A stretch of 64,000 nucleotides of DNA, taken from positions 62,001-126,000 of the forward strand of contig JAPDOI010001427.1 in NCBI GenBank assembly GCA_029168955.1, in the 5' to 3' direction. Below the pieces are notes generated by a model, which did not search any database, had not been told where the DNA came from, and was given only the letters and a program-made list of their open reading frames with translations. Shown in pieces: positions 32,815-63,582 of this stretch. Numbering within the stretch: the stretch's first letter is position 1; every line of letters starts with the position of its first letter. The DNA is from Aplectana chamaeleonis (Eukaryota > Nematoda > Chromadorea > Rhabditida > Cosmocercidae). The position numbers and the translations under genes are program-made.

Positions 32815-34110
32815 AAACCCACTGATGCCCTGCCCCCTTCTATGACGTCCTGCGCGCTCCCACTGATGTCCTGCACACTTTCTTCGGCGTTCTGCGCACA
32901 CCCATTAGGGTCACAAGCACGCTCATGCCTATCACGTTTTCCGCAGGGCTACCTTAACCCTCCTTCGAAAATTTTCCAAGTATCAGCCTGGATAGGAGCA
33001 CATCGTAATAGCCAACAATCATGTTTGCACCATTTCGACCTCCTTTGCCATTTTCCAGTGGCTTCTCGCAGAGAGCGGTGTGCGAATGAATGCATCCCGC
33101 TCTTCCGCCCTTTTATACCTCGCATGTTATGAGCGTGTGTTATCGTTCGTTATCATGTTTTGTTCAAGAATGGTTACGGTAGCCCTGCGGAAAAAACGAT
33201 CGACATTGGCGTGCTTGTATTTGGGTCCCGCAAACTTTTTACGGCGTCCGGCGCATCCCACTTGGGTCCCACATACGTTCTACGGCGTCTTGCGCACTTC
33301 CACTTGGTTAACTCACAGATTCTACGGCGTCCAACGTTCTTTCGTTTGGGTCTCACACACTTTCCACGGCTTACTGCGCACACCCATTTGAGTCCCCCAC
33401 ACTTTCTACGGCGTCCGGCACACTTTCATTTGGGTCCCACACACTTACTACGGCGTTCTGCGCACACCCATTCGGGTCCCGCACACTTTATACGGCGTCC
33501 GGCGCACTCCCACGTGGGTCTCGCACACTTTCTACGGCGTCCGGCACACTCTCATTTGGGTCCCACACACTTACTACGGCGTTCTGCGCACAGCCATTTG
33601 GGTCCCGCACACTTTCTACGGCGTCCGGCACACTCTCATTTGGGTCCCACACACTTACTACGGCGTTTTGCGCACACCCATTTGGGTTCCGCACACTTTC
33701 TACGGCGTGCGGCGCACTCTCATTTGGGTCCCGCACACTTTGTACGGCGTCCGTCACACTCTCATTCGGGTCCCACACACTTACTACGACTTACTGCGCA
33801 CACCCATTTGGGTCCCACACCCTTACTACGGCGTCCGGCACACTCTCATTTGGGTCCCACACACTTACTACGGCGTTCTGCGCACACTCATTTGGGTCCC
33901 ACACACTTTCTAGGGCGTTCTGCGCACACCCATTTGGGTCACGCATACTTTCTACGGCGTCCGGCGCACTCCCATTTGGGTCTCGCACACTTTCTACGGC
34001 ATTCTGCGCACACCCATTGGGGTCCCGCACACTTTCTACGGCATCTTTCGCACTCCTGCTGGGGTCCCGCAAACTATCTACGGCGTTCTGTGGCGCACTT
34101 CTTAGTCACA
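32815..34110 (+). repeat. 42-bp minisatellite array 3
   Basis: A short run (32825-32915) and a long run (33205-34105, about 21 units) of TTGGGTCCCACACACTTACT then ACGGCGTCCGGCGCACTCTCA. All three plus frames are largely open because the unit is 42 bp and lacks stops; the longest frame is 331 codons. Unique sequence with CTTTTATACC (33110) separates the two runs. Confidence 0.93.
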
Positions 34111-38464: not shown

Positions 38465-41245
38465 TACTTTCCCCAGCGCTCTGCGGACTCCCAGTTGGGT
38501 TCCGCCCACTTTTACCGGCGCGTTGTGCACTCACACATGGGTCCCGTCCACAGTTCCCGGCGCTCTGTGGACTCCCAGTTGGGTCCCGCCCACTTTTACC
38601 GGCGCATTGTGCACTCCCATTTGGGTCCCGTCCACAGTTCCCGGCGCCCTGTGGACTCCCAGTTGGGTCCCGCCCACTTTTACCGGCGCATTGTGCACTC
38701 CCATTTGGGTCCCGACCATTCTTCGCGGCGCACTTTGCACTCCCTTCTTGGTCACGTCCACTTTTCCCCGCGCTCTACGCACACCCATTTTTGCCCCGTC
38801 CACTTTTTACGGCGCTCTGTGGACTCCCAGTTGGGTCCCGCCCACTTTTACCGGCGCATTGTGCACTCCCACTTGGGTCCCGTCCACAGTTCCCGGCGCC
38901 CTGTGGACTCCCAGTTGGGTCCCGCCCACTTTTACCGGCGCATTGTGCACTCCCATTTGGGTCCCGACCACTCTTCGCGGCGCACTTTGCACTCCCTTCT
39001 TGGTCACGTCCACTTTTCCCCCGCGCTCTACGCACACCCATTTTGCCCCGTCCACTTTTTTTACGGCGCTCTGTGGACTCCCAGTTGGGTCCCGCCCACT
39101 TTTACCGGCGCATTGTGCACTCCCACTTGGGTCCCGTCCACAGTTCCCGGCGCCCTGTGGACTCCCAGTTGGGTCCCGCCCACTTTTACCGGCGCATTGT
39201 GCACTCCCACTTAGGTCCCGTCCACAGTTCGCGGCGCTCTGTGGACTCCCAGTTGGGTCCCGCCCACTTTTACCGGCGCATTGTGCACTCCCATTTGAGT
39301 CCCGACCACTCTTCGCGGCGCACTTTGCACTCCCTTCTTGGTCACGTCCACTTTTCCCCGCGCTCTACGCACACCCATTTTTGCCCCGTCCACTTTTTAC
39401 GGCGCTCTGTGGACTCCCAGTTGGGTCCCGCCCACTTTTACCGGGGCATTGTGCACTCCCATTTGGGTCCCGTCCACAGTTCCCGGCGCTCTGCGGACTC
39501 CCAGTTGGGTTCCGCCCACTCTCACCGGCGCGTTGTGCACTCCCACATGGGTCCCGTCCACAGTTCCCTGCGCTCTGTGGACTCCCAGTTGGGTCCCGCC
39601 CACTTTTACCGGCGCATTGTGCACTCCCATTTGGGTCCCGACCACTCTTCGCGGCGCACTTTACACTCCCTTCTTGGTCACGTCCACTTTTCCCCGCGCT
39701 CTACGCACACCCATTTTTGCCCCGTCCACTTTTTACGGCGCTCTGTGGACTCCCAGTTGGGTCCCGCCCACTTTTACCGGCGCATTGTGCACTCCCATTT
39801 GGGTCCCGACCACTCTTCGCGGCGCACTTTGCACTCCCTTCTTGGTCACGTCCACTTTTCCCCGCGCTCTACGCACACCCATTTTTGCCCCGTCCACTTT
39901 TTACGGCGTTCTGTGGACTCCCAGTTGGGTCCCGCCCACTTTTACCGGCGCATTGTGCACTCCCACTTGGGTCCCGTCCACAGTTCCCGGCGCCCTGTGG
40001 ACTCCCAGTTGGGTCCCGCCCACTTTTACCGGCGCATTGTGCACTCCCACTTAGGTCCCGTCCACAGTTCGCGGCGCTCTGTGGACTCCCAGTTGGGTCC
40101 CGCCCACTTTTACCGGCGCATTGTGCACTCCCATTTGAGTCCCGACCACTCTTCGCGGCGCACTTTGCACTCCCTTCTTGGTCACGTCCACTTTTCCCCG
40201 CGCTCTACGCACACCCATTTTTGCCCCGTCCACTTTTTTTACGGCGCTCTGTGGACTCCCAGTTGGGTCCCGCCCACTTTTACCGGGGCATTGTGCACTC
40301 CCATTTGGGTCCCGTCCACAGTTCCCGGCGCTCTGCGGACTCCCAGTTGGGTTCCGCCCACTCTCACCGGCGCGTTGTGCACTCCCACATGGGTCCCGTC
40401 CACAGTTCCCTGCGCTCTGTGGACTCCCAGTTGGGTCCCGCCCACTTTTACCGGCGCATTGTGCACTCCCATTTGGGTCCCGACCACTCTTCGCGGCGCA
40501 CTTTACACTCCCTTCTTGGTCACGTCCACTTTTCCCCGCGCTCTACGCACACCCATTTTTGCCCCGTCCACTTTTTACGGCGCTCTGTGGACTCCCAGTT
40601 GGGTCCCGCCCACTTTTACCAGAGCATTGTGCACTCCCACTTAGGTCCCGTCCACAGTTCGCGGCGCTCTGTGGACTCCCAGATGGGTCCCGCCCACTTT
40701 TACCGGCGCATTGTGCACTCCCATTTGGGTCCCGACCACTCTTCGCGGCGCACTTCGCACTCCCTTCTTGGTCACGTCCACTTTTCCCCGCGCTCTACGC
40801 ACACCCATTTTTGCCCCGTCCACTTTTTACGGCGCTCTGTGGACTCCCAGTTGGGTCCCGCAAACTTTTACCGGCGCATTGTGCACTCCCACTTGGGTCC
40901 CGTCCACAGATCCCGGCGCCCTGTGGACTCCCAGTTGGGTCCCGCCCACTTTTACCGGCGCATTGTGCACTCCCACTTAGGTCCCGTCCACAGTTCGCGG
41001 CGCTCTGTGGACTCCCAGATGGGTCCCGCCCACTTTTACCGGCGCATTGTGCACTCCCATTTGGGTCCCGACCACTCTTCGCGGCGCACTTTGCACTCCC
41101 TTCTTGGTCACGTCCACTTTTCCCCGCGCTCTACGCACACCCATTTTTGCCCCGTGTACTTTTTACGGCGCTCTACGCACTCCCAGTTGGGAACCGCCCA
41201 CTTTATACAGCGCTTGGCGCACTTCAATTCGTGTTCCGCACACGG
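38465..41245 (+). repeat. 42-bp minisatellite array 4 (largest, about 66 units, higher-order structure)
   Basis: Units alternate between variants such as CTCCCAGTTGGGTCCCGCCC / ACTTTTACCGGCGC and CTCCCATTTGGGTCCCGACC / ACTCTTCGCGGCGC. The same order of variants recurs about 840 bp apart (39211-39645 versus 40051-40487), a higher-order repeat of 20 units. All three plus-strand frames stay open for hundreds of codons (up to 950), because 42 is divisible by 3 and the unit lacks stops. The resulting 14-residue peptides (for example SRPLLPAHCALPFG) do not resemble a known protein. Confidence 0.95.
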
Positions 41246-43120: not shown

Positions 43121-43124
43121 ACTG

Positions 43125-43800
43125 AGGTCATGCGCACGTCCCTTGATGTCCTGCACACTCCTACTGAGGTCCAGCGCACCCCTACTGGGATCCTGCACAC
43201 GTTCCATGATGTCGTGCACACGTTCCATGATGTCCTGCACACGTTCCATGATGTCCTGCACACCCCTACTGGGACCCTTCACACGTTCCATGATGTCCTG
43301 CACACCCCTACTGGGATCCTGCCCACGCCCCTTGATGTCCTGCACACTCCTACCGAGGTTCTGCACACTATCTACGACGTCCTGCACAACCCTACTGGGA
43401 TCCTGCTCACACCCATCATGTCCTGCACACCCCTACTGGGGTCCTGCTCGCGCTCCATGACGTCCTGCACACCCCTCTTGGGATCCTGCACACCTCTGAT
43501 GGGGTTCTACACACGTTCCATGATATCCTGCTCACTCCTACTGAGGTCCTACACGCATGACGACGTCCTGCGCACCCCTACTGGGGTGTTGCACAGGCCC
43601 CATGATGTACTGCACACTCCTACTGGGGTCCTGCACAAGCTCCATGACGTCCTCCACACCCCTACTGAGGTCCTGCACACAGCTACTGGGATCCTGCACA
43701 CGTTCCATGATGTCGTGCACACGTTCCATGTCTTGCACACTACTACGGGGCTCCTGCATACATTCCATGACGTCCTGCGTACTCCTAGTGCGGTCTCGCA
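43125..43800 (+). repeat. 42-bp (2 x 21) minisatellite array 5
   Basis: About 16 units built from two related 21-mers, such as GTCCTGCACACGTTCCATGA-T and GTCCTGCACACCCCTACTGG-G. This shows that the 42-bp family derives from a 21-bp half-unit. Open frames of up to 277 codons exist in all plus frames. Confidence 0.92.
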
Positions 43801-48861: not shown

Positions 48862-48987
48862 TTACGTGCGACTCCTCCCACGAGCATGTGGAGTCAGATC
48901 TCCAACGTAATTCTCCTGAACGTCTTCATCCAAGCCGCATGGTCGGGTGAACTCCTGACCTCGTTCGTGAATCCACTTGTTTGAAAC
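48862..48987 (-). CDS. P4HA: P4HA last exon with stop codon (126 bp)
   Basis: After acceptor TTGTGCAG it reads VSNKWIHERGQEFTRPC, then GLDEDVQENYVGDLTPHARG and RSRT, followed by TAA. KWVSNKW..E..RPC is the canonical C-terminal block of animal P4H alpha subunits. The intron before it is 190 bp. The stop lies inside CGCACGTAAGC, which also looks like a splice donor (CGCAC|GTAAGC), so a longer alternative C-terminus is possible. No ER-retention signal is expected, because the PDI partner supplies it. Confidence 0.94.
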   Translation of the reverse strand, partial: VSNKWIHERGQEFTRPCGLDEDVQENYVGDLTPHARGRSRT

Positions 48988-51900
48988 CTGCACAAGGAAT
49001 ATGGGATAAACACCAAACATAATGGACGTCATTTATTACTTTTCGTTTCTTCTTCTGAATAACCTAGATTGTTAGGTATTTTCTGCTTTGCATCTTGAAG
49101 GATGAAACATTAGGATTTCTTCCATGTTTACAAAGTACCCGCATACTGAACCTGAAACTCTCATTGCCCAAACATACCCATTTGACGCCGAGCAGAACTG
49201 GGCAAGCCGCATGTCGCGTTCGCATATCTCCCTCTCCGCTTCGCATCAGATTGTACCAGAAGAGCGCGTCGTACTTGGACGGGAACACAGCTGTGCCGAG
49301 CTGATTGAAAACAGTCGCACCTCCACGCTCAGGCTGCGTCATCTAGAAAGAAGCCTATTATTCGTCAGGAATAGATTCTAGGAATTCCGTCAGACATCCG
49401 ACATTTTCAATAGAACTCTCAGAACTCCAGCGCATACCGAGTGCATAGAAATATACAGCAGCGCGTTAAAAGAAAATTCCAAAGATACAAGTGGAACCAC
49501 TATTGAAGCTTGGCACACTTTTTTAACACTTAAAGGCAGCAGACGCGCTCAACAATGGTATCGATTTTATGACATAAAGCAAAAGTTTTGAGCTGGTTGT
49601 AGTGGGGACTGACGAAAAAACGAACGAAAACTGTGTGCAAATAGAGGAACAACGGTTATTTTGTTATCGGGTGAAAGTGGAAAAGTTTGACCGCGCGCGG
49701 TTGAAACCGCAAATATTGGCAACAAAACGATTGAGATAGACAAGCCGATATACTCTCACAGCCTGTACTGGAACGTTCACCTCGTTGGAAGCATCAAAGA
49801 CCAGCCAAAGTGACCGTATTAGTACTGTCAATCTGGACGAGTTTGTATTTTGGGGCGGGGTTGCAGAAATTTTTCGACTTGCATTACTGAAATTTAGTAG
49901 TTTTGACTCGTTTTTGACGCCTCCAACGGCGTGAGCAGTCTACTAGGATCCATGCGACTCCAGAAACGCTTCAGGAGCGTGCCGCGCTTGCGGTGAGGAC
50001 TATGAAAGATGCCTTATGGAAGTTGTTTCAAGTATGGTTATTCAAGCAATGATAAAAAGGAGTACAATTTTTCCCAAGTAAAACAAAAAAATCGAGTGCT
50101 TGACGTGTGTGCGCAGTGTGAACACACGCTCTCTTAAAGGCAGTGTTCACGATGATTCTCATCCCCGAGTTTTTCACAGAAAACGAAGCGTTGGCCTCTA
50201 AGTGTTACCAAAATCACGAAGAAATGGAGAGAAACGCACTAATTCGTCTTATTTCAGTGACACTATTCTATGGCCTGGACTAGTTGTCTGGTTGGATGAA
50301 CATGTTCACGGTGGTTGTCACCGGTAAAAAATAGGACTAATCGAAAATGGAAGAATATTTTGGGCAAAACAGTATTAGTTAGGGCCCGGAGGAAAGAACA
50401 GAGCAACACAGAATGGAGAATTGCAAAAGGCGGGTCCACAAAAGATTTCATTGTCACAACGAACAGTTCCATTGATACTTAAAGGCAGTGGTCGCGATCA
50501 AATATGCTTGTCGACTTTTTCTCTCCAAACCTTTTCCTGGGTCTCGAGTAGTAGGACCTATACGAAAAAATCGCGAAACAACCACTGTTTTGGGCCGAAT
50601 TTGAAACCTGAACTTTCTTGCCTTTTGATGGTGGACGAGCCCTCTTCACATCATCGGCATCGATGACCTCTTATATCAAGAACATCAGCTAGCTTGAAAT
50701 TGAATGTCAATCAATGAACCTTCGAATTTATGTACACATCTAGTCAAAAACATTGACTGAAGTGATGCTTTCATTATTCAACTGTTTTTATTCGTTAAAT
50801 TTGCATTTATTTCGTCCTCTGAGTGTCGATGATTTTTGACTGCTCGGCATGAGACTGCGATCTGTTTCGTCATCGCTGTGCACGTGTGCACGAACTAGCT
50901 TCTTTGGGCCCTAGAAACTCTATTTGTAGACCGTTTTTCACCGCGCTACCTTCATAGTTTTTCAGCTGTTTTTGATCTAAGTTGATTTTTGTAGTTTTTT
51001 CGATAACGTTTTTCATCGTGACCACTGCCTTTAAGAGGCGGGCTGATACTTGAGGATTTCGTGCCCTTCTGGTGCGTTTTTCTCGGTTTCTTCGTCATTT
51101 CAGTTCTACTCGGGTGCCAAACAATCGATTTAGCGATTAATCTCAAAATCGAAGATTATCGTGAACACTGCCTTTAAAGGCAGAGTCCACGATAAAAACC
51201 ATGTCTGATTTTTTGGTGGAGATCGGCAGCTGCGGGGCCTAGCGAAACCCTAATGTTGGAAAAACTAAGAAAAATGAGCTCGGAACGGTCCCCTACGGCC
51301 CCAAAGTTGGACACCCGTCAGCTCGTCACACCCAGATGCACTTTCCACGCCCACCGACGTGAACAAATGAATGCTCGAGATTGTGAGATGAGCGATGGTT
51401 TCCGATCAATAGCCTCGTTCTTCCTTTCATTCTCAACGCCTCTCTTTACTCAGGTCAGCTCGCATGCATCGGCTGCAAAAGACGGAAGTTACAAGCCTCG
51501 GACAACTCGTTCACCATGCTGCCCTAGCTCAATTTTTGAAGGACCATAACTCCGTTCCCAGAAGGTCTCGTACGATCCCAAAAACATTATTGGAATCAGC
51601 AGGTGACCTTCTTCACAGTGGGCCGAAAAGCAGAGAAACGATTCTTATCGTGAACACTGCCTATCGTGAACACTGCCTTTGAAGGCAGTGGTCGCGATCA
51701 AATATGCTTGTCGTCTTTGTCTCTCTAAACCCTTTTCTGGGTCTTGAGTAGTAGGACCTATAAGAAAAAATCGCGAAAAAACCATTGTTTTGGGCAAAAT
51801 TTGAAGCCTGAACTTTCTTGTCTTTTGACGGTGGACGAGCTCACTCCATATCATCGGCATCGATGACCTCTTATATCAAGAACATAAGCTGGCTTGAAAT

Positions 51901-54900
51901 TGAATTTCAATCAATGCAGCTTCGGATTTATGTACACATCTAGTCAAAAACATTGACTGAAGTGCTTGCTTTCATTGTTCAACTGTTTTATTAGGTAAAT
52001 TTGCATTTATTTCGTCCTCTGAATGTCGATGATTTTTGACTGCTCGGCATGAGACTGCGATCTAATTCGTCATCGCTGTGCACGTGTGCACGAACTGGCT
52101 GCTTTGGGCCTTAGAAACTCTAATTCTAGCCCGTTTTTCACCGCTCTACCTTTATAGTTTTTCAGCTGTTTTTTATCTAAGCTGATTTTTGTAGTTTTTT
52201 CTATAACGTTTTTCATCGTGACCACTGCCTTTAAGTGTTGAATAGATCTGCAATTTGTATTCTCTTACGAATGGTCAAATTCCGGAAACAGTAATATTTC
52301 CAACCGACTCTTTCCCGACGACATAACTAAAGGCGGCGTTCACGATGAAATGATAGGCGAGAAGTACCCTAGGTTCTGTAGTTGTGCACGAACGAAATTT
52401 TCGAAAAAATTTTCGAAATTTTTTTCGTTCGTTCGAAAACTCCTCGAACGAAATTTTTTCAGATTCCGTTAGTTCGACATTTCGTTGAACGAAGGTTTTC
52501 AATTTTCGTCCGTTCGAAATCCGATTTTTCAAAATTCCTTCGAAATTCGTTCGTTCGGAATTCTTCCGAACAAATTTGGACAAAAGTTCGAAATTTCGAT
52601 TAGTTTCGAATTTCGTTCGTTCGACCTCCGAAATCGAAAGTTTTTCAAAACTCGTTCGTTCGAAATTGTTTCGACCGGTTTTTTTTTCGTTTTTCGTTAG
52701 CTCAAAATTATTTTTCGAACGAAAATTTCTCGATTTTCGTTCGTTCGACATTTTTTTTCGAAATTGTACAACTATACTAGGCTTCATGTGTCGAAAGAAC
52801 GGAAGAAAACGAGCCATGAGTGACAAAATAACGGCTGCGAGCAAGCGTTTTGGTGTACCAGAACCGCCCCCTCGATATGAACAAATAAAGACTCAGATTA
52901 CAGGAATGATCAAGCCAAGAAAGTGCTGATAAGTGAGCTGATCGCTTCATTGCATTGATAGGCATCATCCTTCATAGTGGTCAATTCCTCCACGCTCAAA
53001 AATCAACGTAAACAAGGGAGGACCTATCCTGGCTCAAAAACGCGACTTTCGCGTCCTTTTCAAGCGTGTTTCGCTATATAGGGCACCAGACCTTCTGTAA
53101 ACCGTGGAGATATTGCAAGTGAAATTTATCGTGAACACTGCCTTTAAAAAACAGTAGAATCCAGCAAAGCCTGGGTCCTGGCGGCGCGCTAGCACGGCAA
53201 AACGTTCCCAAAGGGTTGTCCTGTTTTTGCGGTTCGACACATCACGCAACTAAATTCAAGTAAAGCTGTCTCCATTGGAATTAGAGCCGCAGAAGGCGAG
53301 ACAGCTCCTCACTCGGTGGGTAGAGAGCCCCTATCCGAACGCAATTAAAGTCTGTCCGAATGAGAATGTCCGCCCACGCGGTCGGCGTGAAGATATTGCT
53401 CGGACAAGCCTACCCGCGACTGAGGTACAGCTTACTGGGATACTGTTCACTATTCGTCAAATTTTCTTGCTAATCGATTGACAGGTCTGCAAAATGCCTT
53501 CGCGACAGCCAATCAACACTCCCACCGACCGCGAGGGCGGAGAGCCTCGCTGCGTGATAGCAAGTTTTATAGTGGAAATCTTTCCACTGGTTGTCAGTCG
53601 ATCAAACAATAAATAGAAGTTGCTATAAAAAAGATTAGTTACTTTGGGTGTAGTTCAATTTTCTGTCAAGGCTATGCTGAAAGGAGCATCAAAATAGGAA
53701 TTGGTATCCAACAAACTTCTTGTATGTATTAGAAAGCTGAGCATTCTTAAACACTAAAGAGGCATCGCAGAAATTTTCTACGAGACTTCCATTCATAGGA
53801 GGGGGGATCATTTCTCCGTTGAGACCCTTGCCAATGGGAGGAAGAATGGTTGCATAGCTCAGAAGATAGAGCACTCGGCTAAAGCAGTGTAGGTCTATGG
53901 GTTCAACGCTATGCCCAATCGTGAACTGGTAGACGGAGAAGCCCGCACTGCCTGATTCTGAGAGCTCGAATCCGCCGCAATTTCAGGCATTTCTATATCT
54001 GCTGCCAAATAAGCTCATTTTGGAGTCCGACTTCTTGTGGAATATGAAGCCCCTGACTCAGTCACTCTCCCGATTCAGCTTAGCAGTTTGAAGTGGGTGA
54101 TACATCGAGTCGTGACCTCACCGCGGCCTGACGGGACCGAGTTCTCCGGCAATCGCTCCGCCTACGACGCAAAATCTTTGGACGGTGATGGAGCTGTCAG
54201 TTATTGCCCCTATCTCGGTGTCGACACACGTCACACCGGAAGGCACGTTGATTGAGCAAAGGTAGGGAGCACCACTTAGGCATCTTTCATAGTACCCACC
54301 GCAAGCGCGGCATGCGCCGGACAAGCGTGCCGCGCTTGCGGTGGGTATTATGAAGGATGCCCAACAGGGATGTTAGTCGTTCGACCAGCCAAATCTGGTG
54401 AGCGCTTCGCGCTCACCACAATTTTGGCCGGTTAAACGACTAACCAATTACGCCCATCCCTGATGCCCGAGTGGTGCTCCCGACCTTTGCGTATCCAAGA
54501 GCTCTACGAGCTTCAACTCACATTCAGGCCAGGTTCACACTTCCAGCCACAAGCAACGCAACGCAATGTTCACCACCAATATCGACCAAAAATCGATATG
54601 ACCGATATGAGGTGTCGCCGTCGCGGCAAGTATGATCCCGGTCTCATGCTTCGGCATAGTGGCCACGATACGAGGAGTCAACGCTCCAGAATGACTCGAT
54701 GAAAGTAAGAGTGTAGAAAGCCACTACGTAGTTTTACCGCAATCGCCACTCTTGCAGGCCACTCTTGCTAAGCCAAGGGTGGGTTTAGCATACGAAGTGA
54801 TCTGCCGGCTCTGCACGCTCCCTCTACATACCCTCTACAAAGCGTTGTGATTCACATCCTTCGAGGCGCGCGCAATGCCTCGGCCTCCGTCTGCCCTCCG

Positions 54901-57900
54901 CTCTCTCACTGTCTCTAACCTCCGCTCCGCAGCAGCACGCGTAGGAACCATGTAAATTTCGCCGTTTTGTAGCCTGTATTTCAGGGCGACATTTACTCGG
55001 ATCAATTACATGCAAGTGTGCGCGTATGCTGATTCTCTTTTCCACACACTCTCGCTGTCTCTCCCCTCGCTGCGCATACGCACGCAAAGGAAAAAGTTTT
55101 GCTCCAAAATAGATGGTACGACCTCGCGCGAGTCAATTGTGAGATGTGCTTGCCGCCACTAGTTTTTGTAGTCTGCGGGGTACCGATTCAAAACGAGGCG
55201 TCGATTTTTTTTGGCATCTCATGATCACACTTCAAGCAACTCACGGAACTCTGAGTTGTCCACCCCCAAAACCACAGGAAATGTAAAGGAATTTCGCCAA
55301 AATGAGTCGACCGAGTGAACAGGACGCGATCATTGCGGCGGGCCCGCGCGGTGTCCGCGATACCACGATTCAGCGGAGTTTCGATCGCGACCGACTCTTT
55401 TCCTAGGGGTCAACTCTACGGAGAAACCATGGACACTGATGGGAAACATAATTTGATTGTTTACATATTCGTGTATACCAGTACTAATAATAAGTGGGTA
55501 TATAACAGTTGTTCGCAAACTATATGAATTGAGAAGATCATAAAAAAGCGTAGATGAAGCTTACGTAGTACAACACGGTCGCGATTCTATTGCCGGTGTT
55601 GAGGCTCTTGAAAGCGTTTTTCTCCTCTTTCTATAAAAAAGATTCATAATTCACAGAAACACTTACGTAAAACAATACGGTAGCAATGCGATTGCCATTC
55701 TCTCGGTAAGGTTCCGTTTCGCCTCTCTAAAAATGGTCCTCATTCAGAACAGTATGTGACAGAATCTCAGACTCGATTAGGAAACGACAGGCTAATTGAG
55801 ACAAATGACTGACTACAACTTGACCAACCTAACCAAAACATGGTAGAGTTACTTTAGGGGTTGAGCAGAGTGCCAACAGTGCGCGGCGCGGCCTCATGAT
55901 GGAGAGCAGTATTGATAGATCGCCGCGATCTATCAATACGACTTATCATCATCAGGCCGCGCCGCGCCCTGTTGGCACTCTGCTCGACACCTTAGGAGGG
56001 AGTGCACGGGCGCACAGCCAGCAAATGAAACGGCTTGTGGCAGTTGCTTCCCCAGGATGATAGGATTAATGTACGGTGCTCAATATGCTCTGAGATACGC
56101 AGCTGACAAAAACGATCGGTGGCTATCTCAGGCATTGTGAGGTTTGTAACGCGCAGTGAACGCGGGTCATAATCTGAACCGCTCCCGTTAGAAACGAAAA
56201 AATGGGCAAAGTGGGTGCCCCATATCCGCCGCTTGCCCCGCTATATCCGGCGATTCACTGCTGTTTGCAGGTTTCGATCATGTTCGGTTCCGCCCGCGAT
56301 ATCCGGCGATTCACTGCCGTTTGCAGGTTTCGACCATGCTAGATTAGATTTACAAAGGCAAAGGAGGTCTTCGTCCTATTATATAAGCACGTGGCGTTAG
56401 GGGCGGCGTCCCCTCGTTTCAATAGGAGCGGGTCTCCCCCAACAAGGACACGGTCCATGTCGCGGCCAGCGTGAGGGAGTCACCCCCACCGCGGTCCGCG
56501 ACAGGGACATCATCCACGCCACGGTCGACCGCGAGGGACCTTCCCTCGCTGAGGACCGCGGGGGAGACCCCTCAGCGTCAAAAATCGTCCAGAGAGTGAC
56601 TCGTAGCCACATTCCAGGAGCGGCCCTGAAAGGCCGACTGCGCTATCTCTGGGATGAGGCCCCTTATATACGTCCTCTGCTTCTGATATGGACCTGGTCA
56701 ATTGTGGATTCATCGATAACGCGATTTGGCAGATCAAACGAGTTCATGCCCTGTCAAATCGTCTTCGAACGCAACACCGAGCCTCTCTGCAGCAGTCACG
56801 TCATCGCCACCCATACGACGGAATCCGAGGTTTGACAGGCGCTGAACGCAGACCGGAATGGCCATGCGGGAACTCTGCCGTTTGCCCCGCACAGGTCGAA
56901 ATGGGACGGTTCAGTGCGCGTTAGAAACGCCAGGATGTCTGAGATGGGACGGTTCAATGCGCGTTAGAAACGCCAGAATGTCTGAGATGGTGCGAACAAA
57001 TGCATCTTGCGAATCCCTGATAGAGACGCTAGGAGTGAGTAGACGTTGCCGTCAATAAAGGATCGCGTCAACCGGATACCTTAAAGGCAATGTTCACGAT
57101 AAAATTCGTCCCTGACTTTTCTTTGAAAAAGAATGGTAGTAGCACCCAGAAGCATAGTAGTGTTGAAAAAACGGATTCAAAAGCCTTCCCAGAGGGAGAA
57201 AACGGTTTTGAAGATTTTTGAGCTCTCTTAGTGAGGATGAAGATTTACTCACCAGAAAAGTGAAAGAAGCGAAAAAAGTAAAGATTTGCGGGAAAACCAT
57301 CACAAAGAAGGTAGAACGACTAATTACAGGTATGCGCACGCCCCCAATGGAAGGCAGTGTTCACGATGAAATGAATGAGCTGTTCATTGCCTCTGATTAT
57401 GAAAGATGCTAAGAAATTGTTAAGCTCTTCCACTGGATTGAACAAGCTACAGTGTCCTCTACCATTATCAGTAGCTAAAATAATGAACGGCCATCACGCC
57501 TATTCATTTCATCGTGACCACCGCCTTTAACGAGGTTTTCACAAATGCTTGTTTCTCCATTTTTCATTTTGCTCTTGGAGGCATCGTTCGCAAAGGAAAC
57601 CCCTTTCCATTTTTCAGGCTCATTTTCATGAATGAGCCCAATGGATCACACCGGTAAACTTTGGCGCGTCAAAAACGTGGGGTTATGAGGTTGGAAGAGG
57701 GTAAAGATGAGGATCCGATACCAGTTCTCACCAGTCTAGCACAAGGAACAGAAGCGCCATGTCATTCGCAAGAGATCCAGTATTCCATATCTTATCTCGG
57801 AAAATCTTATCATCCTAATCTTCACAAGGTTTAAAGCGTAAAACCACTTCAGCCATTCAGAAAAACTTCGAACGTGTTGCACTGGCCACACCGAATTCGA

Positions 57901-60900
57901 CGAAGTGAGCGAGGAATGAATTTTTCAGAAGATTCTCAAACGCGTTTATTTTTCGAAAGCAGGGGTTTTTCGGAGCTTCTTTGCTATTATCGCTTACCTC
58001 AAGAGCTCGACTACTCAAAAACCATTGAAAAATACAACACCGTTTTTTTTGCGCGTACGATATCTTTAAAGAATTCAGTTGTCTCTAGAAGTGCTCAGGA
58101 ATTACTTTAGACGAAAAATAAAAGATGGCAAAACAGGCATTTATAGAAATCTCGATAATTTGGTGCAGGCGGACACCATGGAATAACTTGTTCTTGAGCG
58201 TTTTTTCTCCAACTTTTCACTTATTTTAACCTTTGTGATGGCCGGATCTACCTTCAAATGGGGATGGCACATCAACCGTTTTCAACCGTTTTTTATCGCG
58301 AATCTTGCTTTTAACCGATGAACGTCGGTCCCTGGCTGGGCGTTTGTGCACTCCTATATGAGATAAATCATAAGAAATAAAGATTAAGATCTACCATGTA
58401 CTCAAAATCAGTACAGTAAAACAACAAGGAAAAGTGGCTCTGAAGTGGAGAACAGATCTAACTAAACTTGCAAATAACTGTGAATTTGTAATGGATTATG
58501 TGCAAAAGGAATAATATACCTACGCATATTCTCACACTGTACACTCCCACGAACTCCTACACAAGACCGTGTAAGAACTGTACGATAACCAGAGAGACAT
58601 GGGACTATGAACGGCAAAGATTCATCATTAGAATGAGGACCTCGCATACAAAATTTCACGGCATTCCGGGATTCCGGAGAGCATGCACAACCACATCGCT
58701 TACCGTTGACATATCAAAATGCGGAGCATAATGACCACCGAGGCCATAATTGGCGACCTATAAAAGAAAAATTCAATTTCAGAGGGTAACAAACTGAAAC
58801 TAACTCGGGCAAAGTCGAAGTGTGGATCATAATGACCACCGAGACCATAGTTCGCCACCTGAAAACCATATCGGATAAGCTTCACAGGCCGAATTCAACA
58901 AAAAGAAATGCACGGTGTAGTCCACAAAAAGTTGTTCATTAAAAGCAGAGTTCACGATGATTTTCGTTCCCAAGTTTTTCACATAAAACAGTGCGTTGGC
59001 CTCCAAGTGTTACCAAAACTACGAAGAAACTGCGAGAAACATTAAAACGTCGTGTTTCAGTAAAATTATTCTATAACACGGACTAGTTGTCCGGTTGGAT
59101 AAACATGTTCATGGTGGTAGTCACAGGTTAAAAATTGGATCAATCGAAAATAGAAGAATATTTTATGCAAAGCAGGATTAGTTGGGGCTCTAAGGAAAGA
59201 ACGGAGCAATAGAGAGTAGAGAATTGCAAAGGGGAGATCCACAAAAGGTTTCATCGTCACAACAAATACTTCCTGTGAGACTTGAGAGACGGGGTGAGAT
59301 TAAAGGATTTCGTGTTATTCTGGTGCGTTGTTCTCGATTTCTACGTCATTTTAATTCTACCCGGAGGCCATTTAACCCACCTAGCAAATAATCTCAAAAT
59401 TGAAGATTATCATCAACACTGCGTTTGATACATTAATGAAAAGCGGTCCTTTGGTGATCAATATAAATGAATGGACCGCCTATCATTGATATGTGAACGC
59501 GCAGCTTTTGGTATACTCGGTTCCAATCGTTGCAGCCATGGAAGAGCCCATTAGGGCAAAGTTTTCCCTCAGAGTCTGTGCCACGAAACTCACAAACGAT
59601 TTCGTATAAAATGAGATATTTACGGAACCATCCCGTTCACTCCACCAGTGACGATGCGGCTTCGTGAGTGATCCATCGTAAGCGGGATTATGAAAGACAG
59701 CGGATCACCGAATCCTGTGTAAGTAGATTTTGATTCAACAGCACTGCGTGCGCTGAGTAAAAGGAAAAACTGCTGCCTCCCTTATCTCTTCGAAGGTTGA
59801 ATTGAATAGAGAAGAGTATAATCCTTCATGGACTTTAGCATGAAACAGAATCTTGTCCCTGAAACGCTGGAAGAGAGTGTCCCATCGACATCAGCCATTC
59901 CCACCTGGTATTCTATTTGAATTTTCGGGATGCTTTCTACCTGTCAATTCCTCACATTTTTCCTTATTGCCGACCTACAAAAACAATTCAATGTCTACCA
60001 AGTCCTGATTAAACGTTTTGTTCTACTATGAAGATGCTTTGACGACACAAAGAACGATAAAGCTGTTTCCTCATTACTGCCAAATTAAAGATGGCTACCC
60101 CCAGTACAAGGTATGCTACTGTACCACATTTCAAACTTCCGTGGTCGGGAACTTTTTCGCGCAAACTTACTGCACAGGGGGTTCAAAAGGTTCAACACAA
60201 GAATGAAGTCCGTTGGAGGCAACTGCTTCTTTCTATTATAGTTGCGCATGACTGTAAACTGCTCAATCGCCATTTCTACAATACAGACGTCCGCGATAGC
60301 AGCATTAAAAGCAGAGGACACCCAGAGAAATATTTTTCGTTTTCTGCTAATCTTAGAGAAAATCGCACGCTGATCACAATGGTGTTTCTGAAATCGCTCA
60401 AGGTTCCCTATAAACGGAGTTATGGCTCCTAAAAAATGTTCATGTTTCGAGGGCGAAAATTTAGTAGACGAGTTGTCTCAGGACTGTATTCGCAGTCGCT
60501 GCACGAGAGCTAACCAGATTAAAGGAGGCACACCGTTAAGAGATTGGAGAACGACGATGCGGTTGAAATTCATCCATCCATCTAGCCGCTCTTGAGTTCG
60601 AAAACCAGGAAGGGGGTCGGGCCCGTGGTGGTCGCTTATATCTGGCTTATTTGGGGGAATCGAGATCTCACACTTGGCACGTGTTATACAGGAGGGACCT
60701 ACTATACACTTGAATGGAAATTACAAAATTCATATCTGAGGGTATACTGCGCCTTTGAAGGCAGCATATACTCTCGTATACGTGGTTGAGATAAGTACGG
60801 AAATAGAATGGTATGGCTCAGAACACCGCGCCTACGCATTTTGAAGCGTCAAAAATGACCCACAAAGACGCTGCACGAGTAAGAAGTTGGCCCACCCTGT

Positions 60901-63582
60901 ATGTCCCCGACCTCTGTATTTGCCGTCCTCCTCCAAAACAGGGGTGCTCGGCCAATCCCATCGTCGTCGATGTATGTGTGAGGTGATATACCACCCAAAA
61001 ACATCGCCGACGGTGGGAATGGCCCAGCACCCCTGTTTTGGAGGAGGGCGGCAAATACAAAGGGCGGAGAAATACAGGGCGGGGCCAACTTCTTACTCGC
61101 GTAGGGGCACTGTGGGTCGTTTCTGATCCTTCAAAAAGCGTAGGTGTTGTGCTCTGCGCTATACCATTCTACTTATGCAGTTATCTCAACCACGTTTACG
61201 AGCGTGTACATATGTATGCTGCCTTTAAGGCGATGAAACGCTATCAATGTTGCACTGCGTCGCAGCTCTTGCAACTTTTGCACATGTACTGTAGCATTGC
61301 CAGCATAAAAACTTTGCAGTTTCGTAATACTGCAACCTCATATCTCGAAGTTTACCTGCTTGCTAATCCTATTGGCATTCAAAATTCCAGCAATCAAAGA
61401 TACAGAGCTTTGAACGCGCTAGGTTTCGATTATTATATGACGGCAGAATCATATTACAGAATATACATTGGGTCCGACTCATTTCGGAAAACTGCAAAAT
61501 CTGTTTTTCTCTTCACCGTCAATCTAATGCTTGAAGAAAAGTTTGCTTTCCTATCGAAACTCATTATGCCATTCATGCGAGGACAAAATTGTCGTCGACT
61601 TCACATTGAGTGTTCGTAAAAGGAAGGTTATTCAAAATGATTCGGATATTCGAAAAAATCGGATATTTTACGATTTCTTGTCACAGAAACTCCTAGTTAC
61701 TCTTGTGCTGAGATCATTCTGCCTTTTTAGTCCAGATACATCCAAACGTAAACCTTTCAGTTCAGGGTAAAGCAGAAAAGAGTGATTATTACAATTATCC
61801 TCAATGAGTCGAATCCAATGTATAATACAGAAGAACACCGGCGGGTCCCGGAGGAAGTTAGGCAGAATGCGTAGGCAATGTCGTAATTTCAGAAGGAATT
61901 CAGCTAAAGAACACTAATTGGCCACTGCTCGGCGATATTAACAGAAACTGCGAACCTGGAGATCCTCTGAAGTAGCCTGATTGAGGTTGGTCATATCTCC
62001 GATTCTTCTGTTCACCCGAGCAACCACCTCATGCTCCTCTTCTTTCAACCACGCGCTGAAGCAGCATTTAAGAAGTTGGGAAAACAAGAAGATCGCAGTT
62101 TTGAAATTCCAAACCTAATTGGAAATTCGGAACATACACAAAGGAACCAATAACTCCTCGTTAGACGAACATTTTCGAAAACACGAATAAAAACATAGAG
62201 GACAATGATTAGCGATTACCTCTTGCTAATACGGTAGTTGGCCGTTTCTAGTTCACCTGTCACAGCATTCTGTACAGTAGCACGTTTGAGCTGAAAACGA
62301 AACCACACAATCATGCAGGTCAGCTACGTGGTCTAGACAGGGTCAAGAAGGGTACATACATTTGGGGCAATAACTGGAAACAAGTGGTGCGGACAAACCA
62401 AACACATGAAAACTGTGGCTGTTTCCAACAACTGGTCAATAGGCCCCGTTCGTAGGGGGGCGGCATAAACTGGTAACAGCCGATTCCAGTAATAGGTGGT
62501 TAGGAGGAACTTCGTATTTTCAGAGGGTTTTTTGGACCGGAAAGACTTGGATTGCTCCAACACGTTGAAAAGAACTTGGACAAACTTACAGCTGCCTACC
62601 CGCCGACAAGCTATAAAACTGCTATCGTAAAGTCTGAGCTCGCAAAACTCCGAGTTTCTGCAGCGAAAAGAAGAGCTATTTTCTCCGAAGCATTGAGCAA
62701 CTACTAAAATGCAACCATACGTTACAGAAAAGATCACTGTGAAAGAAACTAGCTAGAAGCTTCCGCTGCTCCGATGAAGAAATTCAACAAGTTTGCTTGA
62801 ATTCATCGGATATTCAACGTATCTCTAGCTGAAAAATAGCCTCAATAGTATGAAATGCAAAAAAGGATGAAATACTAGAGAAAAGGTGAAAATAGAAGGG
62901 CAGAATTTGGAAGAAAACTAAGACTTTGAAAATGGAGATTATGTTGATGGATGAGACACAACTGAGCTCAATCAACTACATAGCTTTCCATATTCGTATT
63001 CTCAATATTTTCATAGCTTTGATAAGAAGTTTTCATGTGATAAAAAGTTTTGTAGGCACTGAAAGCAATTCGCTATGCGAAATTTCAGAAGAAAATAGGA
63101 AACAGGTCATAAAATTAGAAATACCTGCTTTTACATACATTTGAAGGAGAAATTACGGTGTGAAAAAAACGTTGAATCACCTTGATCTTCAAAAGAAAAA
63201 TATCCCTGCACATAAGGCATGAAAACAATGAGAAAATAACGAGCGTCCACTCGTTAATCAAACAACGAAAATTTTCAAAAGCTGATCAGCAACAGATGAC
63301 TCGAAAGTACTAAGTTCCAAAAGACGAAGAGTATTTAAAAACTACGTAAAGATGGATCCGGCTGTCCCATGTTTATTACATCCCCTGTCAGCACGCGCTT
63401 ATTGGCAACTTGGAGGAAATAGTAGCACCAACATCATGAATACCAACAGAAGACACACAGTGGATAGTTAGCGAAGATTTAAACAGAATCTCACTTCATT
63501 CACCAAATATATACCTCTTCGAAATGCGGTAATTGACGGTGATCAGGGACCCATTCTCGGACTTCACCGTGGCGCGCTCCAG
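48862..63582 (-). CDS. P4HA: Collagen prolyl 4-hydroxylase alpha subunit, 3' catalytic part (multi-exon, 5' end outside window)
   Basis: This gene encodes the catalytic alpha subunit of the ER enzyme that hydroxylates proline in X-Pro-Gly collagen repeats, using Fe(II), 2-oxoglutarate, O2 and ascorbate, in complex with protein disulfide isomerase. Nine exons are read on the minus strand: 63582-63515, 62290-62220, 62055-61956, 58858-58805, 58757-58704, 55726-55667, 55630-55565, 49342-49178 and 48987-48862. All introns are GT..AG and phases fit throughout. Together they cover the family's 2-oxoglutarate dioxygenase domain from RATV through SKSAWL, VANYG..PHFD, GNRIAT, GGATVF, RHAACPV and KWVSNKW to the C-terminus. 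The iron ligands (HxD and the distal His) and the 2-oxoglutarate-binding Lys are present. The PDI-binding and peptide-binding N-terminal regions must lie above 64 kb. Six exons form three duplicated pairs. Large introns are filled with MITEs, but no exon is disrupted. Nematode orthologues would be of the dpy-18/phy type; which paralogue is not determinable here. Confidence 0.96.
49178..49342 (-). CDS. P4HA: P4HA exon, GGATVF..RHAACPV catalytic core (165 bp)
   Basis: After acceptor TTCTTTCTAG it encodes 55 codons starting MTQPERGGATVF, with FPSKYDALFWYNL, SGEGDMRTRHAACPV and LLGVKW at the end, then donor GTATGT. RHAACPV carries the third Fe(II) ligand (His), and the Lys of GVKW is the family's 2-oxoglutarate C5-carboxylate ligand. 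The initial ATG is an internal Met, since the preceding exon ends in phase 0 and the family reads Y-M-S/T here. No second copy of this exon was seen. Confidence 0.97.
49343..50130. other. P4HA intron, 3' part
   Basis: Intronic on the minus strand. It has TTAAAGGCAGCAGACGCGCT near 49534 (a MITE-like left end) and GTGCCGCGCTTGCGGTGAGG (49978), which recurs at 54328 as part of a palindrome. Confidence 0.5.
50137..51174 (+). mobile_element. MITE A with nested MITE B
   Basis: The outer A element starts TA-AAGGCAGTGTTCACGATG and ends ATCGTGAACACTGCCTT-TA. The B insertion is at 50482-51031. The B insertion point is about 18 bp from the one in the 28.9-kb copy, so the two nestings are independent. 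Confidence 0.9.
50482..51031 (+). mobile_element. MITE B, copy 2 (550 bp)
   Basis: AAGGCAGTGGTCGCGATCAA to TTCATCGTGACCACTGCCTT, flanked by TA. Nearly collinear with 51682-52231. Confidence 0.93.
51177..51679 (+). mobile_element. MITE C, copy 3
   Basis: AAGGCAGAGTCCACGATAAA to a duplicated right end (CGTGAACACTGCCTATCGTG then AACACTGCCTT). It shares its TA with MITE A on the left; a mutated TG joins it to MITE B on the right. Confidence 0.88.
51682..52231 (+). mobile_element. MITE B, copy 3 (550 bp)
   Basis: AAGGCAGTGGTCGCGATCAA to CATCGTGACCACTGCCTT-TA. The same length as copy 2, with scattered substitutions. Confidence 0.93.
52330..53144 (+). mobile_element. MITE D interrupted by a CGAACGAAA-rich element
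   Basis: The D ends are TA-AAGGCGGCGTTCACGATG and TTATCGTGAACACTGCCTT-TA. Collinearity with 46314-46752 breaks at CCTAGG..TC and resumes at GTGTCGAAAGAACGG. Confidence 0.88.
52379..52774. mobile_element. 396-bp insertion of TTCGTTCG-rich repeats with short TIRs
   Basis: The ends TAGTTGTGCA and TGTACAACTA are inverted (one mismatch) and an imperfect CTAGG-TT duplication flanks the insert. The interior is made of diverged GAACGAAATTTTTCGAAA-type repeats, related to the 41-bp satellite at 21.9 kb. Open frames rich in R, S, F and E on both strands are artefacts. Confidence 0.7.
53145..54275. other. P4HA intron, unique-looking sequence
   Basis: Contains a short homeodomain-like open frame (53275-53481, plus strand) and a tRNA-like A/B-box stretch (about 53848-53920). 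No firm gene. The open frames at 54037-54324 overlap on both strands without a recognised family. Confidence 0.35.
53848..53922 (+). pseudogene. tRNA-like relic (A box and B box)
   Basis: GGTTGCATAGCTCAGAAGAT with a D-stem GCTC..GAGC, and GGTTCAACGCT about 45 bases later, resemble Pol III internal promoters. The anticodon stem and the acceptor stem do not pair, so it is at best a degenerate tRNA or tRNA-derived SINE. Confidence 0.3.
54279..54362. repeat. Near-perfect palindrome, about 38-bp arms
   Basis: GGCATCTTTCATAGTACCCA then CCGCAAGCGCGGCA, mirrored as TGCCGCGCTTGCGG and TGGGTATTATGAAGGATGCC. A half-copy is at 49973-50025. Confidence 0.85.
54365..54470. mobile_element. 106-bp hAT-type MITE with central GC hairpin
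   Basis: The ends CAGGGATG and CATCCCTG lie next to a near-perfect 8-bp duplication (ATGCCCAA / ATGCCCGA). Subterminal GTTAGTCGTT / AACGACTAAC pair. The centre is GGTGAGCGC-TTC-GCGCTCACC. It shares its first 8 bases with the 10.6-kb hAT-like element. Confidence 0.75.
54820..54975 (-). repeat. Uninterrupted (empty-site) copy of host repeat
   Basis: The inverse of 20370-20440 joined to 20926-20990, with no MITE E between GGAGGTTA and GAGACAGTGAG. It is a natural empty site. Confidence 0.8.
55565..55630 (-). CDS. P4HA: P4HA exon, copy 2 of the GNRIAT pair (66 bp, 22 codons)
   Basis: It encodes KEEKNAFKSLNTGNRIATVL then YY, between acceptor TTTTATAG and donor GTAAGC. This is the usual animal form, with an acidic linker, AFK.L and TGNRIAT. 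It is two codons longer than its partner, the same difference as between the two human P4HA2 isoforms (family knowledge). It joins in phase to the GGATVF exon 6.2 kb downstream. Confidence 0.94.
55667..55726 (-). CDS. P4HA: P4HA exon, copy 1 of the GNRIAT pair (60 bp, 20 codons)
   Basis: It encodes RGETEPYRENGNRIATVLFY between acceptor TTTTTAG and donor GTAAGTG, phase 0 at both ends. It resembles the shorter member of the human P4HA2 alternative exon pair, which has a TEGNR-type sequence instead of LGTGNR. The next exon copy starts only 36 bases downstream, which is too short for a normal intron, so the two copies are unlikely to be spliced to each other. Confidence 0.92.
55859..55995. repeat. 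Near-perfect palindrome, about 65-bp arms
   Basis: The arms share GAGCAGAGTGCCAACAG, GCGCGGCGCGGCCT and TATTGATAGATCGC, mirrored around 55927. It lies in the P4HA intron upstream (minus strand) of the 60-bp exon, about 130 bases from its acceptor. Confidence 0.88.
56235..56345. repeat. About 62-bp tandem duplication
   Basis: Two copies of ATATCCGGCGATTCACTGC / TGTTTGCAGGTTTCGA-CATG. Confidence 0.85.
56400..56665. repeat. GC-rich dispersed repeat, copy 3
   Basis: CGGTCCGCGACAGGGACATC, ACGCCACGGTCGACCGCGAG and GAGGACCGCGGG resemble 13190-13415 and 37660-37915. It is followed by CCTTATATACG, parallel to CTTTTATACCGG in the 37.9-kb copy. Confidence 0.55.
56895..57000. repeat. About 52-bp tandem duplication
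   Basis: Two copies of GATGGGACGGTTCARTGCGC / GTTAGAAACGCCAGRATGTCT. Confidence 0.85.
57084..57350 (+). mobile_element. MITE of the AAGGCARTG family, right end unclear
   Basis: It begins TA-AAGGCAATGTTCACGATA. The interior has no copy elsewhere in the window. It abuts the small MITE at 57351. Confidence 0.6.
57351..57537. mobile_element. 187-bp palindromic MITE
   Basis: AAGGCAGTGTTCACGATGAA with CATTTCATCGTGACCACCGC-CTT at the other end, followed by TA. The arms extend through GAATGA and CTATTCATTT. Confidence 0.8.
57538..58700. other. P4HA intron, no feature recognised
   Basis: Contains TTTATCGCGAATCTTGCTTTTAA (58288), an old MITE right end. The open frames here are short and unrecognised. 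Confidence 0.4.
58704..58757 (-). CDS. P4HA: P4HA exon, copy 2 of the VANYG..HFD pair (54 bp, divergent)
   Basis: It encodes VANYGLGGHYAPHFDMST, 18 codons in phase 0, between acceptor TTTTATAG and donor GTAAGC. The HFD iron ligands are kept, but the acidic residue before PHFD is Ala and the canonical FAR end is MST. Codon usage differs at many third positions from copy 1, so it is not a recent duplicate. The gap from copy 1 is only 47 bases, still long enough to act as a nematode intron. Inclusion of both exons would keep the frame. Confidence 0.9.
58805..58858 (-). CDS. P4HA: P4HA exon, copy 1 of the VANYG..HFD pair (54 bp, canonical)
   Basis: It encodes VANYGLGGHYDPHFDFAR, 18 complete codons in phase 0, between acceptor GGTTTTCAG and donor GTTAGT. 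This is the iron-binding loop: the His and Asp of HFD are two of the three Fe(II) ligands in the family. The sequence, including the ending FAR, matches the standard animal P4H consensus. A homologous 54-bp exon follows 46 bases downstream. Confidence 0.96.
58942..59425 (+). mobile_element. MITE A, uninterrupted copy (about 484 bp)
   Basis: TTA-AAAGCAGAGTTCACGATG to ATTATCATCAACACTGCGTT-TG. It serves as the reference for the two nested A copies (28.9 and 50.1 kb). It lies in the P4HA intron only about 80 bases upstream of the canonical 54-bp exon. Confidence 0.88.
59426..60300. other. P4HA intron, no feature recognised
   Basis: No coding signature on the minus strand with splice-site borders; nothing repetitive was recognised. 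Confidence 0.4.
60308..60755 (+). mobile_element. MITE E, copy 4
   Basis: TTA-AAAGCAGAGGACACCCAG to GGTATACTGCGCCTT. The interior GTTATGGCTCC, GACGAGTTGTCTCAGGACTG and TATACAGGAGGGACCTACTA matches 20441-20925. It is joined directly to the next foldback. Confidence 0.85.
60758..61225. mobile_element. 468-bp foldback MITE with AAGGCAGC ends
   Basis: The left arm 60758-60985 (AAGGCAGCATATACTCTCGT, GGTTGAGATAAGTACGGAAA, GTAAGAAGTTGGCCC, CCAAAACAGGGGTGCT) and the right arm 61000-61225 are inverted, ending TATGCTGCCTT-TA. The start of the 193-codon open frame at 61038-61619 lies in its right arm. Confidence 0.9.
61226..61955. other. P4HA intron; open frame without recognised family
   Basis: The plus-strand open frame continuing from the foldback to 61619 encodes a peptide I do not recognise (CTASQLLQLLHMYCS, VFLFTVNLMLEEKFAFLSK). 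No start outside the foldback and no homologue are apparent, so I do not call a gene. Confidence 0.35.
61956..62055 (-). CDS. P4HA: P4HA exon, SAWL..VNRRI segment (100 bp)
   Basis: After acceptor GCTTCAG it reads (S)AWLKEEEHEVVARVNRRI, then GDMTNLNQATSEDLQ, and stops at donor GTTCGC with a complete codon. This is the helical segment between the RATV strand and the first iron-binding loop in P4H alpha subunits, where the family has SAWL..VV.RIN.RI..(T)..EDLQ. It is single copy in the window and follows a 164-bp intron, so it is a constitutive exon between two duplicated exon pairs. Confidence 0.96.
62220..62290 (-). CDS. P4HA: P4HA exon, copy 2 of the RATV..YRISK pair (71 bp)
   Basis: It reads LKRATVQNAVTGELETANYR then ISK plus two bases, between acceptor GTTTTCAG and donor GTAATC. 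The two trailing bases join the first base of the next exon to give S, producing the family's YRISKSAWL. At 71 bp it equals the length known for the alternative exons 9 and 10 of human P4HA1 (family knowledge). The residues VTGELET are closer to the usual family sequence than the partner's ENGSLIT. Confidence 0.94.
62291..63514. other. P4HA intron between the 68- and 71-bp exons
   Basis: 1.2 kb, AT-rich, with no MITE recognised, in contrast to the larger introns downstream. Confidence 0.5.
63515..63582 (-). CDS. P4HA: P4HA exon, copy 1 of the RATV..YRISK pair (68 bp)
   Basis: It reads LERATVKSENGSLITVNYRI then SK plus two bases, ending at donor GTATAT. It aligns with the exon at 62220-62290 and is one codon shorter. 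Both enter in phase 0 and leave with two extra bases, so splicing both together would shift the frame. The acceptor reads TTTTGAG rather than TTTTCAG, which looks weaker than the acceptor of the partner exon. It corresponds in position to the paired exons 9/10 of vertebrate P4HA1. No exon further upstream was found between here and 64 kb. Confidence 0.9.

Follow-up and report, generated by a model that had tools for sequence, protein, structure and literature searches.

Splice variants of vertebrate P4HA1 and P4HA2 have long been known, and the literature searched did not make clear what role the alternative P4HA loops play. The locus described here raises the question of whether a single collagen prolyl 4-hydroxylase (C-P4H) alpha gene of the nematode Aplectana chamaeleonis can exchange several of its active-site elements by the choice of exons, and of how old such a switch is. 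An earlier note on this DNA had proposed three adjacent pairs of homologous exons in one P4H alpha gene, and had suggested that the alternative splicing of these segments may predate the split between vertebrate P4HA1 and P4HA2. The whole 64,000-nucleotide stretch that was analysed is referred to below as the window.

Organization of the locus

The minus strand of the window, from 63582 down to 48862, holds the catalytic-domain 3′ half of a C-P4H alpha gene, the 5′ half of which lies beyond the window end (64000). The hairpin-loop segment is encoded in two variants on this strand, exon 1a (63515..63582; 68 nt, 22 codons plus 2 nt; peptide LERATVKSENGSLITVNYRISK) and exon 1b (62220..62290; 71 nt, 23 codons plus 2 nt; peptide LKRATVQNAVTGELETANYRISK). 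A constant exon, SAWLKEEE..SEDLQ (61956..62055, minus strand; 100 nt), stands between pairs 1 and 2. Exon 2a (58805..58858, minus strand; 54 nt; peptide VANYGLGGHYDPHFDFAR, ending in DFAR) encodes the betaI-betaII catalytic loop together with the HxD motif, and exon 2b (58704..58757, minus strand; 54 nt; peptide VANYGLGGHYAPHFDMST, ending in DMST) encodes an alternative version of both. The third pair consists of exon 3a (55667..55726, minus strand; 60 nt, 20 codons; peptide RGETEPYRENGNRIATVLFY), with a short betaII-betaIII loop and betaIII, and exon 3b (55565..55630, minus strand; 66 nt, 22 codons; peptide KEEKNAFKSLNTGNRIATVLYY), with a long loop and betaIII. The remainder of the catalytic core is encoded by a constant exon (49178..49342, minus strand; 165 nt), and the last coding exon (48862..48987, minus strand; 126 nt) includes the TAA stop.

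The gaps between the members are 1224 nt for pair 1, 47 nt for pair 2 and 36 nt for pair 3. All six paired exons have GT/AG ends, equal phases within pairs and a stop-free reading frame, which confirms the three adjacent homologous pairs described earlier. The acceptor of exon 1a, TTTTGAG, is weak against the nematode consensus TTTTCAG, and the exon 2a donor, GTTAGT, is also weak against its consensus.

Long inverted repeats with arms 80-87% complementary were observed at 60767-61208, in the intron upstream of exon 2a, and at 55856-55992, about 130 nt upstream of exon 3a; they may represent mobile elements or may form folded structures beside the alternative exons. Dispersed intron repeats that are 84-94% alike (50479-51035/51679-52235 and 50134-50235/58939-59040) have the words GGCAGTGTTCACGAT and GGCAGTGGTCACGAT nearby and are possibly non-autonomous elements. 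Tandem arrays with a 42-bp period (21, 63 or 84 bp in some rows) lie at 1246-2462, 10706-11169, 33219-34086, 38466-41204 and 43121-43795; several are similar in wording (GGGTCCCACACACTTT..GGCGC..), and the largest, of 2.7 kb, overlaps with the window's longest open frames. AT-rich arrays of 41/42 bp on TTCGAA-like motifs occur at 25328-28777, with a 224-bp higher-order unit, and at 21877-22348, and stretches similar to them are found in the P4H intron at about 52420-52800. No tRNAs or Rfam families were found within the 64-kb window, and 10 of the 49 stop-to-stop ORFs of at least 120 aa, scanned with Pfam, gave no matches.

Identity of the gene

The spliced peptides contain the HxD...H iron motif, the catalytic-loop Tyr and the 2OG-binding Lys, and both exon-2 copies retain the iron ligands and this Tyr. 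PF13640 scored above its cut-off in both isoforms scanned, and the closest PDB sequence match was human P4HA2 (chain 7zsc_A, E 9.7e-75). Among the matches listed, the closest full-length relatives carry the N-terminal dimerisation and peptide-binding domains (PF08336, PF23558). The earlier proposal of a single P4H alpha gene is supported.

In a tree of the constant exons, the window gene groups with strongylid and Mesorhabditis proteins and with 539-aa Caenorhabditis proteins (support 94/95, a node not starred), the last of which we take from their length to be PHY-2. The clade that holds the phy-1 type was supported at 100/96, and Trichuris and Trichinella formed a group of their own (97/87), separate from all other nematodes in the tree (92/87, not starred). 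In this tree C. bovis, S. ratti and H. contortus stand in for congeners that carry the exons, and P0217 was left out. Within Caenorhabditis, the C. remanei model P0133 holds both 2a and 2b, as the window gene does; unlike it, the phy-1 type (dpy-18 in C. elegans) has one form per site in the proteins listed.

Reading frames of the exon combinations

All eight choices of one exon per pair are open to the stop codon in a spliced-frame check, so the coding potential for up to eight active-site variants from one locus, as first proposed, is borne out. Joining 1a to 1b leads to a stop at codon 33 and skipping both leads to a stop at codon 9; pair 1 is therefore usable only one member at a time. For pairs 2 and 3, the joint inclusion or the skipping of both members keeps the frame. 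The 36 nt between 3a and 3b is probably below the normal size of a nematode intron; no usable minimum length was found in the intron-length literature. Splicing across the 47-nt gap between 2a and 2b could be possible. One member of each pair is most likely spliced into each transcript.

Likeness within pairs

The peptide alignment scores within pairs 1, 2 and 3 were 8.9, 11.8 and 7.2 SD above those of shuffled sequences (5000 shuffles each). A translated search of the window recovered the partner of 1a, 1b, 2a, 2b and 3b, with 3b finding 3a at E 0.004; when 3a was the query, 3b was absent among the best 15 matches listed. The same translated search of the window found no credible further exon copies, the best other match having E 0.036 over 11 residues. 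At the DNA level the members are identical at 36/66, 38/54 and 36/60 positions, and third codon positions agree at 5/22, 7/18 and 8/20 in pairs 1, 2 and 3, respectively. Since the third positions are near random, the pairs are not recent, and the comparison indicates that the copies are old and maintained by selection on the peptide.

Position of the exons on the enzyme fold

In the available part of the 2022 crystal paper on human C-P4H-II, the hairpin loop (363-376) and the betaII-betaIII loop (435-448) are the substrate-binding loops, and the betaI-betaII loop (422-429), which precedes His430 and Asp432, is a flexible catalytic loop (PMC9676403). The same text places the P4HA1 splice variants in the hairpin loop and the P4HA2 variants in the betaII-betaIII loop (PMC9676403). 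By a hand count on the alignment to 7zsc_A, exons 1, 2 and 3 correspond to residues 361-383, 418-435 and 436-457 of human C-P4H-II, and therefore each exon encloses one mobile active-site element. The first residue of the betaII-betaIII loop is encoded by exon 2 and the remainder by exon 3.

An AlphaFold model of the protein P0124 of A. duodenale (1b+2b+3a) places the three exons at residues 350-372, as a strand-loop-strand unit, 407-424 and 425-444. Within residues 281-510 of this model, the blocks of lowest confidence are at exon 1 (57, 52) and in the exon 2-3 loop (76, 73), and its best structural match in the PDB was 7zsc, with a target-normalised TM of 0.92. According to the translated variants, the iron and 2OG ligands are the same in all of them, and the PDI face would be constant as well. 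The pairs are real and old and cover all three mobile elements, and their anatomy is more striking than was first noted.

The same exons in other nematodes

Relatives were taken from the best 120 of 305, of 3068 and of 1143 matches, which together gave 341 distinct proteins, a sample in which absences carry little weight. Among these 341, the 2b signature H-[FY]-D-M-S-[TLM] was found in 12 proteins, all 12 of them from named nematodes, and a 3a-type loop of the nematode kind in 24. Carriers of the 2b signature among the matches listed include strongylids, Caenorhabditis remanei, Strongyloides, Steinernema, Acrobeloides, Trichuris and Trichinella. Both members of pairs 1, 2 and 3 are present in 2, 7 and 11 models among the 341, the two for pair 1 being from N. 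brasiliensis; pairs 2 and 3 are also visible in models of Haemonchus, Strongyloides, Trichuris and Trichinella. Both members are strung together in the gene models of Haemonchus placei (P0121), Oesophagostomum (P0125), Strongyloides venezuelensis (P0131) and Trichuris suis (P0174). The models P0199 and P0231 of Trichinella pseudospiralis, on contigs of different length, are identical except for one block, 2b+3a+3b versus 2a+3b; their agreement elsewhere is most simply explained by one gene with both pairs. The models of Necator americanus P0157 and Dictyocaulus viviparus P0001 do not contain a well-formed exon 2 or exon 3, and the gene predictor was perhaps tripped by the duplicated exons.

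The copies sort by type. All 16 exon-2 copies (8 genes) and all 20 exon-3 copies (10 genes) are closer to a same-type copy of another gene, the nearest such copy often coming from a close relative. Between the window and Trichuris, identity was 0.89 for 2a-2a and 0.83 for 2b-2b, as against 0.78 and 0.72 inside the genes; for exon 3 the same-type identities were 0.57 and 0.82, as against 0.50 and 0.45. A tree of the concatenated exons (12 rows) separated 2a+3b from 2b+3a with support 99/97. Exon 3a is one codon longer, at 21, in Strongyloides, Acrobeloides, Steinernema, Aphelenchoides, Toxocara, Trichuris and Trichinella than in strongylids, Meloidogyne and Heterodera, where it has 20. The 22-codon 1a type also occurs in N. 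brasiliensis P0123 and P0154 and, less surely, in P0209, a protein with 84% identity to Romanomermis at its end; the 1b class makes up 222 of the 286 hairpin segments matched among the 341 proteins.

Recent duplication was considered and rejected on the near-random third positions, the sorting by type and the tree tests. The earlier note had named a recent lineage-specific origin as the outcome that would speak against its proposal. Within nematodes such an origin can be excluded for pairs 2 and 3, where copies group by type; for pair 1 it can be excluded among strongylids (p-AU 0.006 for a strongylid-specific origin, from 23 columns and with long branches flagged). By taxonomy, Trichinella belongs to Enoplea/Dorylaimia, and Haemonchus and Strongyloides to Chromadorea; pairs 2 and 3 are on both sides and are therefore older than the Enoplea/Chromadorea split. 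They are probably also older than the phy-1/phy-2 duplication, as far as these trees indicate. The simplest reading would be one switchable ancestral gene that was then duplicated, with phy-1 becoming fixed, presumably by loss, and phy-2 still switchable.

Comparison with vertebrate and mollusc pairs

Exons 9 and 10 of vertebrate P4HA1, of 71 nt each, are alternative homologous exons for the hairpin-loop segment, as in pair 1; window exon 1a is one codon shorter than exon 9, and the two do not group in the tree. Exons 12a and 12b of P4HA2 cover the same betaII-betaIII segment as pair 3, with 20 versus 22 codons in Clarias P4HA2 (P0286). The earlier comparison was correct on these shared positions. 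The 20/22 lengths of the window match those of 12a/12b as well, yet this exact match looks derived: 3a has 21 codons in the seven other nematode genera listed above, and therefore the match, tried as evidence of ancestry, was discarded. The catalytic-loop pair had been presented as an addition to what vertebrates possess, which does not hold, as P4HA1 models of sauropsids (alligator P0249, tortoise P0234, birds P0235-P0240) carry two tandem copies of the HxD exon, of 18 codons each, like pair 2. Unlike the DFAR/DMST of the window, these copies are near-identical (DFGR/DFAR), those of the alligator differing at one of 18 residues. In the bird and tortoise models, 21-22 codons between the copies are possibly a retained short intron, and the pheasant models also differ by exons 9/10.

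The search of nematode and other invertebrate P4HA genes that had been suggested yielded, beyond pairs 2 and 3 in several nematode genera, both exon-3 forms in molluscs and Lineus. The proteins P0232 and P0247 of Mytilus trossulus differ at exon 3 alone (20 versus 22 codons), P0262 and P0274 of Biomphalaria differ at exon 3 and at the N-terminus, and both forms are strung together in Lineus and in two teleost P4HA2 models. P0241 and P0265 of Physella acuta, whose contigs both have a length of 603416, differ at exon 3 and in one stretch before the catalytic domain and are identical elsewhere; the earlier stretch looks as if a further alternative homologous exon were present there. Taken together, the sequences indicate that these three exons repeatedly recur in two forms.

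Two explanations of this recurrence have to be weighed. The evidence tips toward duplications that arose separately in the nematode, mollusc and vertebrate lineages, each time in the same small exons because these three encode tolerant loops. In the exon-3 tree, nematode 3a (94/89) is separate from mollusc and vertebrate 3a; a single clade of all 3a has p-AU 0.053 (22-23 columns), and separate origins of the nematode, mollusc and vertebrate pairs were not rejected (p-AU 0.455, 0.385 and 0.279). In distant comparisons 3a-3a is often no closer than 3a-3b (Trichuris-Lineus, 0.38 versus 0.45). The hairpin tree, in which a clade of window 1a, P4HA1 exon 9 and P4HA2 has p-AU 0.053 (22-23 columns), the variable lengths of 3a and the single difference between the alligator copies, which are far from the nematode DFAR/DMST, point in the same direction. 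A survey documents convergent duplication of tandem exons across many families and describes it as frequent in such exons (PMC9741552). Against convergence is the repeated use of the same sites with similar short and long forms, which common ancestry would also fit.

A doubtful, though possible, explanation is that alternative hairpin and betaII-betaIII exons were already present before nematodes, molluscs and vertebrates diverged, and that P4HA1 and P4HA2 each retained one pair. The two exon-3 forms in Mytilus trossulus, Biomphalaria, Lineus and teleost P4HA2 are consistent with this, as are the grouping of Clarias P4HA2 3a with mollusc 3a (87/83, on a long branch), the grouping of the 22-codon hairpin of P0326, a protein distant from nematodes, with 1a (90/83), and the disfavoured single clade of the sampled vertebrate hairpins (p-AU 0.0175). 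The test results given above for separate origins and the frequency of convergence stand against it. The copies did not group with their vertebrate counterparts, with p-AU 0.053 in both joint-clade tests (22-23 columns), and the short exon trees give no support to common ancestry of the nematode and vertebrate pairs and tilt slightly away from it.

Surveys of tandem duplicated exon substitution in human, fly and worm describe mutually exclusive homologous exons in one gene, as is proposed here. The strings P4HA and prolyl are absent from the main text of three of these surveys, which is the part that was available (PMC9741552, PMC4465641, PMC5740500). No paper on alternative nematode P4H exons was found in a search that covered subscription journals thinly, which does not imply absence from print.

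Use of the second copies and proposed mechanism

It is improbable that the second copies are relics that preserve an open frame and are rarely or never spliced in. The combination 1b+2a+3b is the single form in many relatives' models among the matches listed, and the weak 1a acceptor and 2a donor would agree with disuse. However, 2b and 3a are open, keep the iron ligands and are conserved by type from Trichinella to strongylids; third positions are near random and the peptides conserved; and the models of A. duodenale P0124 and Acrobeloides P0150 read 2b+3a alone. An assembly artefact or two collapsed genes can be dismissed as very improbable, given the equal arrangement in gene models of several genera and constant exons without a second copy in the window.

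The preferred reading, to which we assign a probability of roughly 0.8, is a phy-2-type alpha gene with three tandem pairs of loop exons, one copy of each being used per transcript to tune the walls of the substrate tunnel. The isoforms would share the iron, 2-oxoglutarate and PDI-binding core and differ in the tunnel walls, and the choice of loops may adjust collagen-peptide preference or kinetics according to the tissue, the stage or the supply of oxygen. The betaII-betaIII loop begins with a residue from exon 2 and runs on into exon 3, and 2a+3b and 2b+3a may therefore be the preferred combinations. Gene models of N. brasiliensis with 1a+1b in frame (P0123), 3a+3b (P0122) and 2b+3b (P0126) suggest that strict exclusivity and the coupling of exons 2 and 3 may not hold, and a 2a-type exon is paired with a 3a-type loop in Toxocara P0020 and in Meloidogyne and Heterodera proteins.

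Pairs 2 and 3 would have been present in the ancestral nematode gene, with duplication within Chromadorea after which phy-1 was fixed and phy-2 kept the switch. In the accessible text of a study of C. elegans, phy-2 is induced by hypoxia via HIF-1, and its mutation lowers survival to adulthood in hypoxia by 100% (PMC11093353); oxygen supply is therefore one candidate, if speculative, reason for retuning the active site. Opposite regulation of the P4HA1 exon pair by U2AF is described in the available part of a U2AF1 study (PMC5224494). More tentative than any shared ancestry of the hairpin and betaII-betaIII pairs is an extended scheme in which every mobile wall of the C-P4H active site was exchangeable before the nematode/vertebrate split. 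One ancestral gene would have borne the switches, its duplicates would have fixed their choices (phy-1/phy-2 and P4HA1/P4HA2), and the nematode 2a-[2b-3a]-3b order would be a nested two-exon cassette that swaps a strand together with a loop.

Gene models often string together or drop the paired exons and so misrepresent a key cuticle enzyme. With three switchable active-site elements in one gene, two of them kept from Trichinella to strongylids, the function of the loops becomes testable through natural loop swaps in an enzyme that is the same elsewhere, and in animals with a mostly collagenous cuticle. The locus may also offer a case of a switchable ancestor that was partitioned after gene duplication. 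A single gene could in this way yield several differently tuned enzymes, and in roundworms at least two of the three pairs are old.
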